Of a DNA stretch of 36,273 nt, positions 24,104 through 31,456 are shown piece after piece. The translations under genes were made by a program, and so were the position numbers. Within the stretch, counting starts at the first letter, position 1, and each line of letters begins with the position of its first letter. The stretch comes from a virus, in the IMG/VR virus record IMGVR_UViG_3300042868_006846, positions 1 through 36,273 of that record. One strand, 5' to 3'. A model generated the notes under the pieces. That model had not been told where the DNA came from and ran no database searches. It worked only from the letters and a program-made list of their open reading frames with translations.

Positions 24104-24132
24104 GTTTTTAGTTCTATTTTTTGGAGGTTGAA

Positions 24133-25617
24133 ATGGAGATTACTTTTGATCGAAAAACGATTGCAAGTTACATGCAATTTTTGCAGCTTAGGCAATCGCC
24201 TGTTTATAACTGGAAGGGATCGGCGGCTGTTGTTCCTGACGAATACGCTTCATCCTTTGGCATGAAAGCGAAGCGACGCAAGGCCAGCTATGATCCTTGC
24301 TCGAAGTGTTTTGATTATCAGCGGGATATTGTCGGCATTGCTATACGCAAAAAGAAATACGCGATCTTTGCGGATTGCGGGCTCGGTAAGACTTTGATGA
24401 TCCTTGAGTTCGCAAGGCACGCATCGAAGCAAAGCGGCGGAAAGTTGCTAATCGTTTCGCCTTTGATGGTGTGCAAGCAGACTGTTGATGAGGCATCGCG
24501 ATTTTATGATGATCTTTCGATTGGTCGCATTGTCGCATCGGACTTGCAAGAATGGTTGTCAAGCAACGATGGGCCATTGATCGGCGTTACCAACTACGAA
24601 GCCATCCGCGAAGGGCTTAAGCGTGGAAAGCTTAAAGGGCTTGTCCTTGATGAAAGCTCGATGCTCAAGAGCCATTACGGGGCATGGGGTACGCGATTGA
24701 TTGAGCTTGGTCGAGGTCTTGAGTGGAAGCTTTGCGCCACGGGTACACCGGCTCCTAACGATCGCATCGAGTACGCAAACCATGCTGTGTTTTTAGATCG
24801 AGCCAAAACGGTTAACGAGTTCCTTGCTTGCTATTTCATCAATCGCGGTGAGACTCAAAACCGATGGGAGTTAAAGCCTCACGCATTGAGGCCGTTTTAT
24901 AAATCGCTTTCGGATTGGTCGATATTCTTGACGAATCCAGCGGTTTACGGATGGCGTGATAATGTTGGAGTTACTCCACCTATCAATGTGCATATCCATC
25001 ATATCGACTTGACCGATGAGCAACGTACTGCGGCTCAAGCATTGACAGGTAACCTAGTGACGACATCAGTAGGTGGCATTGGGCAGCGTGGTAAGCTTTC
25101 GCAAATCGCCAAAGGTAAAAACGGCATCGCATCCAACAAAAACGATTTCATCAGGTCGCTTGTTGATTCGTGGCCGGATGAATCAACGATCATTTGGTGT
25201 AACTACAATGATGAACATGAGCAAATGGAGGGTACGTTTCCAGATGCAGTTTCTATCAGTGGAGACACAAAGGAAAGCGATCGGCAATCGATGATTGATC
25301 GGTTTAAGTCCGGCGAAGTTAGGACGCTGATTACCAAGCCAAAGATCCTTGGCTTCGGGCTCAATCTTCAGGTTTGCACTCGTCAGGTATGGTCTGGGCT
25401 CAAAGACAGCTACGAGGAATACTATCAAGGCGTAAAGCGATCCAACCGGATCGGCTCAACAAGACCGCTAAACGTGCATATTCCAGTGACTGAATTGGAG
25501 GTTCCGTTTGTCGAAAATGTTTTGCGCAAAGCGGATCGAGTCGAGTACGACACGAACGAGCAAATGAGACTATTTAAGGAGATTGGCCATGAAGGTTTCA
25601 GCGGAAAGAATGATTGA
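24133..25617 (+). CDS. SNF2-type DEAD/DEAH helicase
   Basis: A 494-residue protein starting at ATG 24133 behind TTGGAGG (an in-frame TTG at 24121 is inside the ribosome site). Superfamily 2 motifs in order: Q-like DYQRDIV, Walker A ADCGLGKT (residues 80-87), LLIVSPLMV, Walker B VLDESS, ATGTPAPN (motif III), IWCNYNDEHEQM, TKPKILGFGLNLQ (motif V) and QGVKRSNRIGSTRP (motif VI). This is the compact SNF2-like form found in phages, which probably remodels or translocates on DNA. Its neighbour is a DNA methyltransferase. It may act in replication restart or against restriction; not determined. Confidence 0.85.
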   Translation: MEITFDRKTIASYMQFLQLRQSPVYNWKGSAAVVPDEYASSFGMKAKRRKASYDPCSKCFDYQRDIVGIAIRKKKYAIFADCGLGKTLMILEFARHASKQSGGKLLIVSPLMVCKQTVDEASRFYDDLSIGRIVASDLQEWLSSNDGPLIGVTNYEAIREGLKRGKLKGLVLDESSMLKSHYGAWGTRLIELGRGLEWKLCATGTPAPNDRIEYANHAVFLDRAKTVNEFLACYFINRGETQNRWELKPHALRPFYKSLSDWSIFLTNPAVYGWRDNVGVTPPINVHIHHIDLTDEQRTAAQALTGNLVTTSVGGIGQRGKLSQIAKGKNGIASNKNDFIRSLVDSWPDESTIIWCNYNDEHEQMEGTFPDAVSISGDTKESDRQSMIDRFKSGEVRTLITKPKILGFGLNLQVCTRQVWSGLKDSYEEYYQGVKRSNRIGSTRPLNVHIPVTELEVPFVENVLRKADRVEYDTNEQMRLFKEIGHEGFSGKND

Positions 25618-25750
25618 GATCGAGCAACACGCTCGACGGTTCGGCTCTGCTAATTGCTGGACAGGCACTAGCGGAACGTTGGCTACGATGATTATTGAAT
25701 TACTCAACCACATCAAGGATATTGAACAAGATGAAAAACGAACTGCTTAG
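25589..25750 (+). CDS. Small protein between helicase and methyltransferase
   Basis: ATG 25589 behind AAGGAG (25576-25581), within the helicase 3' end. The 53-residue product (start MKVSAERMIEIEQHARRFGS) is helical with a charged C-terminus. It overlaps the methyltransferase start by 20 bases, so it bridges the two genes by coupling. No family recognised. Confidence 0.5.
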   Translation: MKVSAERMIEIEQHARRFGSANCWTGTSGTLATMIIELLNHIKDIEQDEKRTA

Positions 25751-26651
25751 CGATGGCGAACAATGGAAGATCCACAATGGTGACTGCATTCCTCACATGC
25801 TTAATGATATGCCTGAATCCAGCGTTGATTTTGCGGTATTCAGTCCACCATTCCCAAGCCTTTACGCCTATACCGATTCGGTGTCCGATATCGGCAATGT
25901 CGATGCGATGGGAATGGAAGCAAAAATACATCTTGGGTTTTTCTTCACTGGACTAGCAAGGGTGCTTAAGCCGGGACGGGCGGCTATTGTTCACGTTTGC
26001 CAAATCCCGCGAATGAAGCGATCCGGCGGCGTTGGGCTCTGCGACTTTCGAGGGCTCAACATTCGCTTAGGTGAGCGTGCTGGGTTGGTCTATGAGTACG
26101 ATTGGAGCGTCCGTAAGAATCCTCAGGCTCAAGCGATCCGAACAAGATCGAGGGAGCTTCAATTCGCAGGGCTCGAATCTGATCGGGCGGCTCAACGCGG
26201 GACGCTTCAGGACTACTTGATTAAATTCCGCAAGCCTGGTGAAAACCAAGTTAAAATTGACTCGGAGAATCAGGTCAGTCGAAACGATTGGATTGACTGG
26301 GCCGAAGGATGCTGGAGTGACATTCAAGAGACTGACACTCTTAACACGGCTGAGGCTAAGTCTGAGGACGATACGAAGCACATTTGCCCGCTTCAATTGG
26401 AGGTGATACGGCGTTGTGTTTTGCTTTACTCGAATCCAGGCGAAATCGTTTTCAGTCCATTCACAGGCATCGGGTCAGAGGGCTACGTTTCGTTGGGTGG
26501 TAAGTCACCTAAGACCAAAAAGGCGATCGCTAATCCGCGTCGGTTTTACGGTTGCGAATTGAAGCCTGAATACTTCCGGCAAGCGGTTAGGAATCTTGAT
26601 CGTGCTATTAACGGTCGCGAGTCCGAATCACAGCCAACCTTATTTGATTGA
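25731..26651 (+). CDS. DNA methyltransferase (N4/N6-type)
   Basis: A 306-residue protein starting at ATG 25731. It has the catalytic motif FSPPFPS (SPPF at residues 38-41) near the N-terminus and the AdoMet-binding motif FSPFTGIGSEGYV near the C-terminus, the circularly permuted beta-type order used by N4-cytosine and some N6-adenine methylases. The central part has SRELQFAG and basic segments that may recognise DNA. No restriction enzyme is visible nearby, so an orphan methylase protecting phage DNA or altering regulation is likely. Target sequence unknown. Confidence 0.85.
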   Translation: MKNELLSDGEQWKIHNGDCIPHMLNDMPESSVDFAVFSPPFPSLYAYTDSVSDIGNVDAMGMEAKIHLGFFFTGLARVLKPGRAAIVHVCQIPRMKRSGGVGLCDFRGLNIRLGERAGLVYEYDWSVRKNPQAQAIRTRSRELQFAGLESDRAAQRGTLQDYLIKFRKPGENQVKIDSENQVSRNDWIDWAEGCWSDIQETDTLNTAEAKSEDDTKHICPLQLEVIRRCVLLYSNPGEIVFSPFTGIGSEGYVSLGGKSPKTKKAIANPRRFYGCELKPEYFRQAVRNLDRAINGRESESQPTLFD

Positions 26652-26757
26652 TCCTTCTCAGGTCGGTTCGCCTACCACAGGGTCGCTCGTTCGAGAGGGC
26701 GGGCGGCTCTTTATTGTGTCCTAAGATTGGACTGTTTTTAACTCCAAGGAAAACGAA
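26652..26757. other. Intergenic gap before the replication genes
   Basis: A 106-base gap. I see a GC-rich stretch with a short AGAG...CTCT pairing (around 26692-26712) followed by TTTATTG, which is a weak terminator at best. No clear promoter is visible. CAAGGAAAAC precedes the next start. Confidence 0.3.
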
Positions 26758-27012
26758 ATGACAGAATCTAAAAACACAGACATTGCGGGCTTAAAGCCAA
26801 AACAATTGCCGGACTCGCCAAGATGGAGCGTCGCTGCTGAAGCAGCGGAGTGTAGTTACCGAAGGGGTTTTGTGCACGGATTTTCGCAGGCTATCGACGC
26901 AGCTGAAAAGTGTATGACGATCAGCGATATGATTGACTACTTAAATAACGATCTTGCAGAGTGGAGGCACTCGAGTGCGGACTCCGAAAAGATACCACCT
27001 AATCTTCCGTAG
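26758..27012 (+). CDS. Hypothetical protein, 84 aa
   Basis: An 84-residue protein starting at ATG 26758 behind AAGGAAAA. It is acidic with a helical central part (EAAECSYRRGFVHGFSQAID, a GFxxGF-like turn) and ends SEKIPPNLP. No family recognised. It precedes the replication initiator. Confidence 0.55.
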   Translation: MTESKNTDIAGLKPKQLPDSPRWSVAAEAAECSYRRGFVHGFSQAIDAAEKCMTISDMIDYLNNDLAEWRHSSADSEKIPPNLP

Positions 27013-27053
27013 GTAGCGGTTTATTGGCTTCAACTGAGAGGGTTGGTGGAGAG

Positions 27054-27872
27054 ATGGCTGGTGATTGGATAAAGTTCGAGACCGCGACGAGCGACAAGCC
27101 GGAGGTTTGGGCGATGGCTCAGTCTCTCGGGATTGATGCTGATGCAGTCGTAGGAAAATTACTTCGTGTATGGTCTTGGTTCGATCAACAGACCCAAGAA
27201 GGTAACGCAGTTGGTAACGGTGCGAGCGTTACCTCTAGCGTTACCAAGGCGTTACTAGATCGACGAGTCGGCGTTAGCGGCTTTTGCGACTCGATGATTC
27301 TTTCGGGGTGGATGGCTGACGACGGGCATAGTTTGACCTTGCCAAACTTTGACCGACACAACGGAAAAACAGCAAAAACGCGGGCAATGACTGCGAAAAG
27401 GGTAGCGACGCACAAAGCAAAAAGTAACGCTGGTAGCGTTACCTCTAGCGTTAGCGATGCGTTACCTAGAGAAGAGAAGAGAAGAGAAGAGAAGAGTAGT
27501 CATTATGTCTCCCTCTCTCTGTTGGGAATCAAGCATTTTGAGTTCTTGTCAGAAAACACAGTTTGCCCTGAGTGGCTTGCACCTGAATTCTGCCGATGGT
27601 TGGCATTTCGTTTTTCGAGAGATGCGGTCAAAGTTGACGAAATACTGCAGGAAACTTGGATCAAGCGATTGATCGAGAGAGGGAAAGAAAAATCACTGGC
27701 GGACATTGATTTTTCAATCAGCAAACAGGCGAAAAATCTATTGCATGTTGAAAACGACTTCGACAAGATCGCAAAAGCGAAACTGGAATCTGCTAAGAAT
27801 CCGCAGGGCAGGGAGACAAGGGGAGACAAGGCAAGGCAACTCATCGAGGATATCAAAAATGGACGCGTCTGA
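27054..27872 (+). CDS. Replication initiator, lambda O-like, with internal origin
   Basis: A 272-residue protein starting at ATG 27054 behind GGTGGAGAG. The N-terminal part (AGDWIKFETATSDKPEVWAM, VVGKLLRVWSWFDQQ, SGFCDSMILSGWMADDGHSL, LPNFDRHNGKTAKTR) is a winged-helix initiator domain common in phage replication proteins. The C-terminal half is helical and charged. The gene contains two clusters of GCGTTACC-type repeats (around codons 50-75 and 124-138) and then an AGAGA repeat encoding PREEKRREEKSS, like the lambda ori inside O. It should bind its own origin and recruit the helicase loader encoded next. Confidence 0.75.
   Translation: MAGDWIKFETATSDKPEVWAMAQSLGIDADAVVGKLLRVWSWFDQQTQEGNAVGNGASVTSSVTKALLDRRVGVSGFCDSMILSGWMADDGHSLTLPNFDRHNGKTAKTRAMTAKRVATHKAKSNAGSVTSSVSDALPREEKRREEKSSHYVSLSLLGIKHFEFLSENTVCPEWLAPEFCRWLAFRFSRDAVKVDEILQETWIKRLIERGKEKSLADIDFSISKQAKNLLHVENDFDKIAKAKLESAKNPQGRETRGDKARQLIEDIKNGRV
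27201..27278 (+). repeat. Origin iterons, cluster 1
   Basis: Copies of an 8-mer: GGTAACGC 27201-27208 and GGTAACGG 27213-27220 (inverted), then GCGTTACC 27226-27233 and 27238-27245, GCGTTACT 27249-27256, and GCGTTAGC 27271-27278. Successive spacing is 12, 11 and 22 bases, about one or two helical turns. The stretch is inside the initiator gene. Confidence 0.75.
27423..27466 (+). repeat. Origin iterons, cluster 2
   Basis: AGTAACGC 27423-27430 (inverted), GCGTTACC 27436-27443, GCGTTAGC 27448-27455 and GCGTTACC 27459-27466, again spaced 12 and 11. Cluster 2 repeats the pattern of cluster 1 (AGCGTTACCTCTAGCGTTA shared) about 210 bases downstream. Confidence 0.75.
27468..27496 (+). repeat. AGAGA pentamer repeat next to the iterons
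   Basis: About 5.8 tandem copies of AGAGA, one base after the last iteron. It is an asymmetric purine tract on the coding strand and a possible DNA-unwinding or loading element. Because the unit is not a multiple of 3, a gain or loss of one copy would shift the initiator frame. Confidence 0.7.
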
Positions 27873-28335
27873 AAATCGATTGTTTTTTACCGAGGTGGTA
27901 TTTGCACATTTTCCGGCTCTTTACGTTTACCTGCAGGAGAACAGCGTAAGGGTCATTGACACAATCGACGCTTGGCAGGGAACACTGCGAGACATAACTA
28001 CGCAGGAGGCTTTGTCGGTTGTCTACAGGTGGACAAAGGACGAGCTCCCAAGACCGAGCCATTTGCAGTATTCTGATTTTGCTTTGCATTTGCGAGGCGT
28101 TGTGATGCGAGACAGAACGGATCAGAAAAAAGGCGTTCTGATTGAATCAATCAAGAGTCGCGAAAGCGATTCAGCAAGCTACAGCCATGTAAGCCTAAGG
28201 CCATTCATGAAACGAATATGGGATTCAGGAGATGCGTTTAAGGCTGGATTGATAACCAGAGAACAGCACGACGAAAACACAAAGCTGGTCTTAAGCGATC
28301 ATGCTGCAGAGTATCGAAAGGCTAACTTACGATGA
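27859..28335 (+). CDS. Possible helicase loader (G39P-like)
   Basis: A 158-residue protein starting at ATG 27859 inside the initiator gene end; the frame from 27706 is upstream read-through. FTEVVFAHFPALYVYL, then DAWQGTLRDITTQEALSVVY and RWTKDELPRPSHLQYSDFA give the pattern seen in G39P-type helicase loader/inhibitors (W..L.D....A......P). Position after the initiator is where lambda P and similar loaders lie. It has no Walker motif, so it is not a DnaC-type ATPase. Assignment is tentative. Confidence 0.45.
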   Translation: MDASENRLFFTEVVFAHFPALYVYLQENSVRVIDTIDAWQGTLRDITTQEALSVVYRWTKDELPRPSHLQYSDFALHLRGVVMRDRTDQKKGVLIESIKSRESDSASYSHVSLRPFMKRIWDSGDAFKAGLITREQHDENTKLVLSDHAAEYRKANLR

Positions 28336-28514
28336 AACTTTCCGAATACTTTGCCAACATCGAGGATCTTAAATCCGAAAATAAAGACCTTCGCAAGCAG
28401 CTAGAGCGAACGAGCCGAAAGCTGACCGAATCTCAGGCGAGAACCAAAGAGTTATTCGACGCACTCCGAGCCGTCGTCAACAAAGATCATCCAGCGCTAA
28501 GGAGGAAGAAATGA
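28332..28514 (+). CDS. Coiled-coil small protein, 60 aa
   Basis: A 60-residue protein, almost entirely a charged coiled coil (IEDLKSENKDLRKQLERTSR). Four-base overlaps with both neighbours. It may scaffold the replication proteins; no family recognised. Confidence 0.55.
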   Translation: MKLSEYFANIEDLKSENKDLRKQLERTSRKLTESQARTKELFDALRAVVNKDHPALRRKK

Positions 28515-28915
28515 AAATTTTCATTCCAGGCGAGCCGGTGGCGCAACCACGGCCAAAGGTTTCGACGAAGAACGGCTTTCCGAGGGCCTACACAGAGCAA
28601 CATCATCCCATCCATGCTTTCAAGCAGGCTGTCCAGTTGGCTTGGAAATCTTCGATCAATCGATGCTTGACAGGGCCATTGTCAATCGAGATTGTTTGCT
28701 GGTACTCGCGACCGAAAGGCCATAGCAAGATACGTCGAACGGCTCGCGAGCCTAAGATGAGCAGGCCGGACATCGACAATACGGCCAAGGGCATCCTCGA
28801 TTCCTTAAACGGCGTTGCTTACATCGACGATGGGCAGGTCTATAGGCTGAAGGTCGAAAAGTGGTACGTTGGGCCAGAGGATCAAGTCGGTACATGGATC
28901 GAGGTGACCCAATGA
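28511..28915 (+). CDS. rusA: RusA-family Holliday junction resolvase
   Basis: A 134-residue protein with the family features: N-terminal strand FIPGEPVAQPRPKV, basic central segment (RPKGHSKIRRTARE), SRPDIDNTAKGILDSLNG with D87 and D89, and YIDDGQV with D106 and D107. These aspartates bind the catalytic metal. It cuts four-way junctions made by the RecE/RecT pathway and replication, preparing DNA for packaging. Length is normal (about 120-135). Confidence 0.9.
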   Translation: MKIFIPGEPVAQPRPKVSTKNGFPRAYTEQHHPIHAFKQAVQLAWKSSINRCLTGPLSIEIVCWYSRPKGHSKIRRTAREPKMSRPDIDNTAKGILDSLNGVAYIDDGQVYRLKVEKWYVGPEDQVGTWIEVTQ

Positions 28916-30257: not shown

Positions 30258-30635
30258 ATGGCTGACGAAAAGAAAAAAGAAAACTGGTTGCCTTGGATTG
30301 TCGCGGCGTTGGCGGTCTTTGCGATGTTGTGGAACCAGCAACCAGGGGACAAGCCACAACCGAAGGAGCTCAAGGCGGTCGTATCTCAGACGTTGCCATC
30401 CATCCGATCGGCCTACAAGCAGGCTTTCTTAGAGGCAGCTTCAAAGATCGAGTCCGGCGAGATTAAAGATCAAGAAGCTTGGACGAAATTCATTGCCGAC
30501 AACGCAGGGGCTAAGCAACGTGAGGCACTCGATCGAGTCTACGAGGCCATTGACAAACTCGATTTGCCTGCAAGCTTTGCCGGTAAGGAATATGAGATCG
30601 CCAAGGTCAATCGAGAAATAGCGGGGGCTTGGTAA
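30258..30635 (+). CDS. Membrane-anchored protein, 125 aa
   Basis: Starts at ATG 30258 or 30255; AAGG at 30247-30250 fits 30258 better. The N-terminal basic stretch (ADEKKKENW) precedes one membrane helix (LPWIVAALAVFAMLW). The rest is a soluble, helical, charged domain likely outside the membrane, ending AGAW. It couples to the protease (TAATG). It could be a lysis regulator or a partner of the protease; not recognised. Confidence 0.5.
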   Translation: MADEKKKENWLPWIVAALAVFAMLWNQQPGDKPQPKELKAVVSQTLPSIRSAYKQAFLEAASKIESGEIKDQEAWTKFIADNAGAKQREALDRVYEAIDKLDLPASFAGKEYEIAKVNREIAGAW

Positions 30636-31456
30636 TGAGTGATTTTTTCACAGGCTATGACCCAACCATAGAAAACCGAGACGCGATCAAAGCTAGCTCG
30701 ACTCAGATCGAGTTCACCATGCGAGACTTCGCGGCTCCAGAAGAAATCGATCCTCGAAAGTTGATGCGGCACGACAAGCAAGGCAACATGGGATCGTGCC
30801 AAGGCTTTTCGCTTACCAATGCTTGCGAATACGTTTGGGCGTTGGTGCATGGCTCGTTTAGCGTTGATCGTCAGTTGTCGCAATTGTTTGCGTATCTTGA
30901 GTCACAAAGACAAAGCCAAGGCTTGCTCGGTTTCGACAAAGGATCCACCATCGAAGCGGGTCTTAAGGTCGCAACATCGATTGGGATGCTTCCCGAAAAA
31001 GATTTGCCTTACTCAACTCCATATCCAAACAACGCTCGGACGCTCATTAGCGACGATATGCGAATGAAAGCTTTTCCGTATCGCATTGGCTCGCATACTT
31101 GGCTAGATTCGTATGATGCCATCTTTCGGTACTTGGCAAGCGGTGTAGGTGCGGTTCATACCGGGACGCTCTGGAATGATAGTTTCTACAGTCGAAACGG
31201 TGTTTTGGAGTCGGTCAGTCTCGGTCGCGGTGGCGGTCATGCTACGGCATGGCTTGGCTACAGCAAACGCAAAGACAGCAAGAACCGCAACTACATTTGG
31301 AGACTCAACAGCCACAACGATTCTTGGACTGAGATTGCCCCATCGGTAATCGATGCTCTCTGTCGGCATCAATGGACATCGATTGTCGGCGTGTCGGATC
31401 TTTCAACGCCAGGGCCACGCAAAGTATCTTGGATGCAATCGAGGCCATTGGGATGA
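30635..31456 (+). CDS. Papain-like (C1A) cysteine protease
   Basis: A 273-residue protein starting at ATG 30635 (TAATG). Papain-type catalytic elements are all visible: Q49 (oxyanion) six residues before C55 in QGNMGSCQGFS, H202 in GGGHATAWLGY, and N225 in RLNSHNDSW. It has no signal peptide and no obvious long propeptide. C1-family peptidases are rare in small phages. It lies directly after membrane proteins in the position usual for an endolysin, and no muramidase, amidase or transglycosylase is visible. It may degrade a host envelope protein or peptide cross-links at lysis, or mature a virion protein. Function inferred. Confidence 0.75.
   Translation: MSDFFTGYDPTIENRDAIKASSTQIEFTMRDFAAPEEIDPRKLMRHDKQGNMGSCQGFSLTNACEYVWALVHGSFSVDRQLSQLFAYLESQRQSQGLLGFDKGSTIEAGLKVATSIGMLPEKDLPYSTPYPNNARTLISDDMRMKAFPYRIGSHTWLDSYDAIFRYLASGVGAVHTGTLWNDSFYSRNGVLESVSLGRGGGHATAWLGYSKRKDSKNRNYIWRLNSHNDSWTEIAPSVIDALCRHQWTSIVGVSDLSTPGPRKVSWMQSRPLG

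Follow-up and report, generated by a model that had tools for sequence, protein, structure and literature searches.

Repeats within a phage replication initiator gene

The window analysed here, the full 36,273 nt of the viral record IMGVR_UViG_3300042868_006846, contains on its forward strand a replication initiator gene at 27054..27872, encoding a 272 aa protein, with an alternative in-frame TTG start at 27024. This annotation draws on profile matches to PHROG 2509 (E 3.7e-59) and PHROG 9474 (E 1.5e-28), an AlphaFold model and structure comparison. The PHROG 2509 profile, a replication initiation protein, covers residues 1-147, and on the strength of this similarity the product is assigned to that family of initiators; profile searches found no Pfam or NCBIfam match.

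A scan of both strands of this ORF for GCGTTACC, allowing up to one mismatch, detected ten copies grouped in two clusters 210 bp apart. Cluster 1 begins with two inverted iterons on the reverse strand, GCGTTACC at 27201..27208 and CCGTTACC (also written GGTAACGG) at 27213..27220, followed on the forward strand by GCGTTACC at 27226..27233 and 27238..27245 and by GCGTTACT at 27249..27256; the last of these includes the rare TTA codon of Leu67, and is marked by the recoding test and codon conservation as well as by the motif scan. An outlying iteron-like sequence, GCGTTAGC, lies on the same strand at 27271..27278, where Val74 is GTT in 29 of 29 relatives, and many relatives retain GCGTTACC or GCGTTAGC at the equivalent position. 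Cluster 2 has an inverted GCGTTACT (also written AGTAACGC) on the reverse strand at 27423..27430 and forward copies at 27436..27443 (GCGTTACC), 27448..27455 (GCGTTAGC) and 27459..27466 (GCGTTACC), the final one including the TTA codon of Leu137, likewise conserved, and adjoining a purine tract. In both clusters the step between direct copies is 12 and then 11 bases, such that the two form a 42-nt direct repeat, 86% identical, at an offset of 210 nt. The tract, at 27468..27496 on the forward strand, is a (GAAGA)n sequence of period 5 that runs for 29 nt without a pyrimidine; besides its sequence, it is marked by arginine AGA codons that are fixed in relatives and by the crossover of cassette swaps.

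The original prediction of two 8-mer clusters with 12 and 11 base spacing, about 210 bases apart, flanked by inverted copies and trailed by a purine repeat, is thus borne out by the motif scan, which places the inverted copies at 27201, 27213 and 27423 and the repeat at 27468-27496. To this, the present analysis adds the second inverted copy in cluster 1, the extra site at 27271 and the reading of one word in several frames.

Other genes in the window are of separate interest. Those at 24121-25617 and 25695-26651, encoding a SNF2-type helicase and an N4/N6 DNA methyltransferase, match different parts of phrog_16; as both fall within one profile, they may be halves of a protein that is fused in other phages. 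An 872 aa protein encoded at 1837-4455 matches head-protease and major-capsid profiles together, from which the protease and capsid protein appear to be fused, and a 275 aa protein encoded at 30629-31456 has features, suggested by eye, of a papain-like peptidase (GSCQGFS... GGGHATAWLGY).

Conservation of the repeats at the DNA level

Under the same criterion the whole window contains 47 matches, with 19.7 expected; there are only seven exact copies in the 36 kb, five of which are inside the initiator gene. With the amino acid sequence fixed, the 5 exact and 10 one-mismatch copies observed in this gene compare with expectations of 0.50 and 2.48 under codon permutation, a conservative null because the codon pool already holds the iteron codons, and of 0.24 and 1.78 when codon usage is taken from 17 other genes in the window. 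In neither case did any of 20,000 simulations reach the observed value. Within the gene, the same word is read as SVT, as ALP or ALL and, when inverted, as GNA.

For comparison, 80 loci were fetched from viral contigs by protein similarity, and 46 GenBank phage records, including phages of Salmonella, Escherichia, Xanthomonas, Pseudomonas, Klebsiella and Vibrio, were found to match. In many of these relatives, whose genes range from 38 to 62% GC, GGTAACGC and GCGTTACC separated by 5 nt appear twice, once in the part encoding the DNA-binding domain and once ahead of a CCTARAGAAGAGAAGAGAAGA tract. The inverted sets of 39 dereplicated, protein-selected relatives could all be assigned to an iteron class, namely CGTTA (33), TCCGC (4) or TGTCAC (2), and their sites sum to 219, where 97.9 would be expected if the proteins were kept unchanged. 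Leu137 is encoded by TTA in 33 of 33 relatives (1.7 expected) and Leu67 in 25 of 29 (1.6 expected), whilst the arginines of the tract are AGA in 25/25 and 26/26 (1.6-2.0 expected). The mean z for codon freezing is 6-11 in the iterons and tract and about 1.5 across the rest of the gene, although these values are not probabilities, because the genes are related. Loci fetched by DNA pattern, being biased towards the motif, were left out of the site, codon-freezing and iteron-class counts, and were included in the counts of reading frames and hairpins that follow.

The reading frame itself also varies: the inverted pair of cluster 2 is in phase 0 (GNA..SVS/SVT) in 122 genes and in phase 2 (KVT..ALP) in 35. 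The composite motif of last iteron and purine tract nevertheless falls within the family ORF in 177 of 178 instances, the exception being the cut end of a contig, and a purine run of at least 15 nt is present in 149 of 187 relatives.

These data bear on the proposal that the conserved unit is a repeat in the protein (SVTSSV, EEKRREE) under selection for its own sake, with the DNA pattern a by-product. SVTSSV is indeed encoded twice in the window, and the linker in which the second cluster lies is rich in charged residues. However, the nulls exceeded above hold the protein constant, rare codons are frozen, the residues concerned are in low-confidence, disordered segments, and the frame changes, under which a single DNA word yields GNA, SVT, ALP or KVT, contradict this proposal, which we find scarcely credible. 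Instead, the comparison points to selection acting on the DNA and not the peptide. The original prediction had called for a search for iterons conserved despite codon changes, and such conservation is seen in the 39 of 39 relatives with a class, in the frozen codons and in the changes of frame.

One relative, in a Verrucomicrobiales MAG (L295, 3191-3214 on the reverse strand), has mixed iterons, GTGTCACGCC and GCGTGACA, the last one ahead of the shared purine tract being GCGTTACC. Its DNA-binding domain is very divergent, and it is possibly an intermediate between the iteron classes.

The initiator protein and its relation to known systems

AlphaFold predicts a helical, winged-helix-like N-terminal domain (aa 1-120), likely to bind DNA, then a disordered linker (aa ~120-155) and a helical C-terminal domain. 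Residues 4-113 show weak similarity to winged helices, with Z up to 4.9 (4.1 for the DnaD N-terminal domain); Foldseek finds nothing at E <=0.001 for the whole protein, and the PDB contains no sequence relative of it. Confidence (pLDDT) is low at aa 54-58, corresponding to cluster 1, and at aa 120-150, corresponding to cluster 2 and the tract. The iterons are encoded by disordered segments, one a loop of the DNA-binding domain and the other the linker, and hence the peptide would tolerate the constraint on the DNA; judging from the model, these may be the segments that the protein most easily spares. A DnaT-type domain (PF17948) is found in the C-terminal half of the initiators of epsilon15, L039 and L032, but was absent from the window protein in a profile search.

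The product had been predicted to be a lambda O-type initiator. In the sense that it would work like O this still stands, but the protein is not an O homologue: TIGR01610, the O N-terminal domain, matches lambda O at 5.4e-39 and gives no match to the window protein, BLASTP between the two is not significant (E 0.12), and the family is PHROG 2509. In lambda, it is established that iterons and an AT-rich tract lie in the middle of gene O (PMC7466680), and synonymous mutations in the iterons abolish replication of plasmids derived from P27 (PMC7466680). In both ori-lambda and the window, iterons and an opening region, here a candidate, occupy the central part of the initiator gene, separating the half for DNA binding from that for partner binding, and a helicase-loader gene is usually next. 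However, lambda has a single cluster of four annotated 18-bp iterons and an A-rich tract, whereas the window has 8-bp iterons with inverted pairs, two clusters, of which one is within the DNA-binding domain, and a (GAAGA)n tract; the DNA-binding domain also differs from that of O, without a detectable sequence relation. As far as can be judged from sequence, the putative origin of the window probably works like ori-lambda, but its initiator belongs to a family that has no sequence relation to O, its inverted iterons form two clusters, and cassettes are exchanged.

The same family and layout are found in the PHROG 2509 or 9474 proteins of epsilon15, TL-2011b, Xanthomonas phage CP2 and the Rac-type YdaU of E. 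coli 442/2. The Rac 442/2 and TL-2011b genes have GCGTTACA/GCGTTACC variants, whereas those of epsilon15, phiPSA1 and BUCT711 have iterons of the TCCGC class and lack cluster 1. The YdaU of the Rac prophage in E. coli K-12, which shares the neighbouring ydaV with 442/2, is 87-89% identical to its counterpart in the C-terminal half, but has an unrelated DNA-binding domain (DUF1376), and its gene contains its own repeats, three copies of TGTTCAAAC. According to a published report, Rac contains an origin, oriJ, that is active (PMC3945230).

Exchange of the DNA-binding domain together with its sites

The strongest evidence comes from natural swaps. Between the window and the phage locus L008, identity is 95.5% at 26675-27071 and 94.4% at 27460-28519, but there is no alignment at 27072-27459; the same interval matches three other loci (L013, L003 and L004) at 91-92%, as far as 27490. 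A specificity cassette comprising the DNA-binding domain and both iteron clusters, at 27072..27465 on the forward strand, has thus been replaced as a block relative to L008 and L012, with its right edge between ~27460 and 27490. The L008 initiator is 98% identical to that of the window at the C-terminus and 35% identical in the DNA-binding domain, and its iterons are of the TGTCAC class. Similarly, the initiators of Klebsiella phages phi3.2 and BUCT711 are 100% identical at the C-terminus but 39% identical at the N-terminus, with iterons of GCGTTACA and GCGGAC respectively, and those of Rac 442/2 and Rac K-12 have unrelated N-termini, with iterons of GCGTTACC and TGTTCAAAC; in both pairs homology resumes at the tract. 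Each of the three swaps is accompanied by a change of iteron, which means that a recognition domain travels together with its sites, as a single block.

Such covariation of sites and DNA-binding domain would also be expected if the repeats had no part in an origin and were intragenic operators, used by the initiator or some other regulator to repress its own operon: a winged-helix protein could equally well bind inverted 8-mers as operators, and those used for intragenic autoregulation would be conserved too. However, the sites lie 150-410 nt into the gene, away from the promoter, and the purine tract follows even where the iteron sequence differs (epsilon15, phiPSA1 and BUCT711), although a repressor needs no tract. 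Repression as the sole function is consequently improbable, whilst operator and origin roles can coexist.

As the tract is also the crossover point of the swaps, it, and perhaps the iterons, might be conserved mainly as a recombination seam for exchanging DNA-binding domains rather than for unwinding. In three independent swaps the sequences become homologous again at the tract, and the phage encodes an exonuclease-VIII-like protein. Nevertheless, we judge this very improbable as the main explanation, since it leaves both the co-varying inverted iterons and the AGA codons frozen across the family unexplained. A shared functional element is also a natural point of crossover, and the seam and unwinding readings are therefore compatible. 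We infer that the tract could be the unwinding or single-strand loading side of an origin, a role that fits its fixed position beside the last iteron.

A variable hairpin after the purine tract

In many relatives (L188, L124, L250, L137, L278, L283 and others) a hairpin of variable sequence lies directly after the tract, within 0-50 nt. The 50 nt past the tract fold better than shuffled sequences (mean z -1.06, s.e.m. 0.12), whereas stretches from 40 nt onwards fold no better than shuffles. One version, of the form C5-N4-C5-N3-G5, occurs in 23 of 121 dereplicated genes, with 0.93 expected, and the CCCCCTWWACCCCCNNNGGGGG version encodes PPxPPxGG-like peptides in all three frames. A single-strand loading site, a primer site and a recombination seam are candidate roles for this structure. 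In the window itself such a hairpin was rejected, the folding z being +0.93, in contrast to the significant mean for the family.

Evidence for a replication origin

Genes for DnaC-like, P-like or DnaB proteins neighbour many of the relatives, and are directly downstream in Rac 442/2, PAN70, phiPSA1, Carin1 and VW-6S. In the window, the next ORF, 27859-28335, matched no family in profile searches, helicase loaders included. Its close relatives, whose small number and high similarity preclude a profile, are in L008-type phages that share the C-terminal half of the window initiator, at the position that a helicase loader occupies in others.

GC skew, which had been suggested as a check, is uninformative in the window, since it rises throughout and shows no turn. 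One relative is carried by the 41-kb circular plasmid NC_015459, itself a phage genome with no other evident replication initiator; cumulative GC skew there reaches its minimum 1.5 kb from the iterons, although the genes change direction at that point as well. A second circular replicon, a 52-kb E. coli 'plasmid' (CP088505.1; loci L297 and L298), has a family initiator at 43099-43869 of the record. The record consists of a TL-2011b-like phage remnant that harbours a Mu-like prophage; no other annotated replication initiator was seen in it, and it is either a plasmid run by the family origin or an excised prophage circle.

Taken with the comparison of relatives, which upholds the predicted location of the origin inside the initiator gene, sequence evidence makes it very probable that the repeats are the replication origin of the phage. 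By analogy with lambda, the initiator would bind at the iterons and the duplex would open at the purine tract. The N-terminal winged-helix domain, acting as dimers, would occupy the inverted iterons of both clusters, ~210 bp apart, and wrap or loop the DNA, with the resulting strain causing the opening at the tract. The C-terminal domain, which in several relatives is of the DnaT single-strand-binding type, could then hold the opened strand and recruit a DnaC- or P-type loader, encoded just downstream in many relatives, which would place the replicative helicase.

More broadly, we consider it fairly likely that these loci represent a large and largely undescribed class of phage origin, in which a cassette of coding DNA, comprising a DNA-binding domain and its cognate iterons and bounded by the gene start and the purine tract, is replaced as a block to exchange replication specificity, with the helicase-recruiting half kept; many members would have the variable hairpin after the tract as a third element. 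Searches of open-access papers for the iteron, for YdaU, for the purine repeat and for phage origins within genes turned up no account of such an origin in the PHROG 2509 family.

The origin reading would give a readable signature for a widespread family of initiators annotated only as 'replication initiation protein' or 'hypothetical', among them relatives in phages of E. coli, Salmonella, Klebsiella, Pseudomonas and Xanthomonas. With their matched DNA-binding domains, the three iteron classes would form a ready set from which to work out rules of recognition, and the near-identical pair of the window and L008 a natural domain-swap experiment. It would also provide a plain reason for origins to lie inside initiator genes, in that the recognition domain and its target move together.
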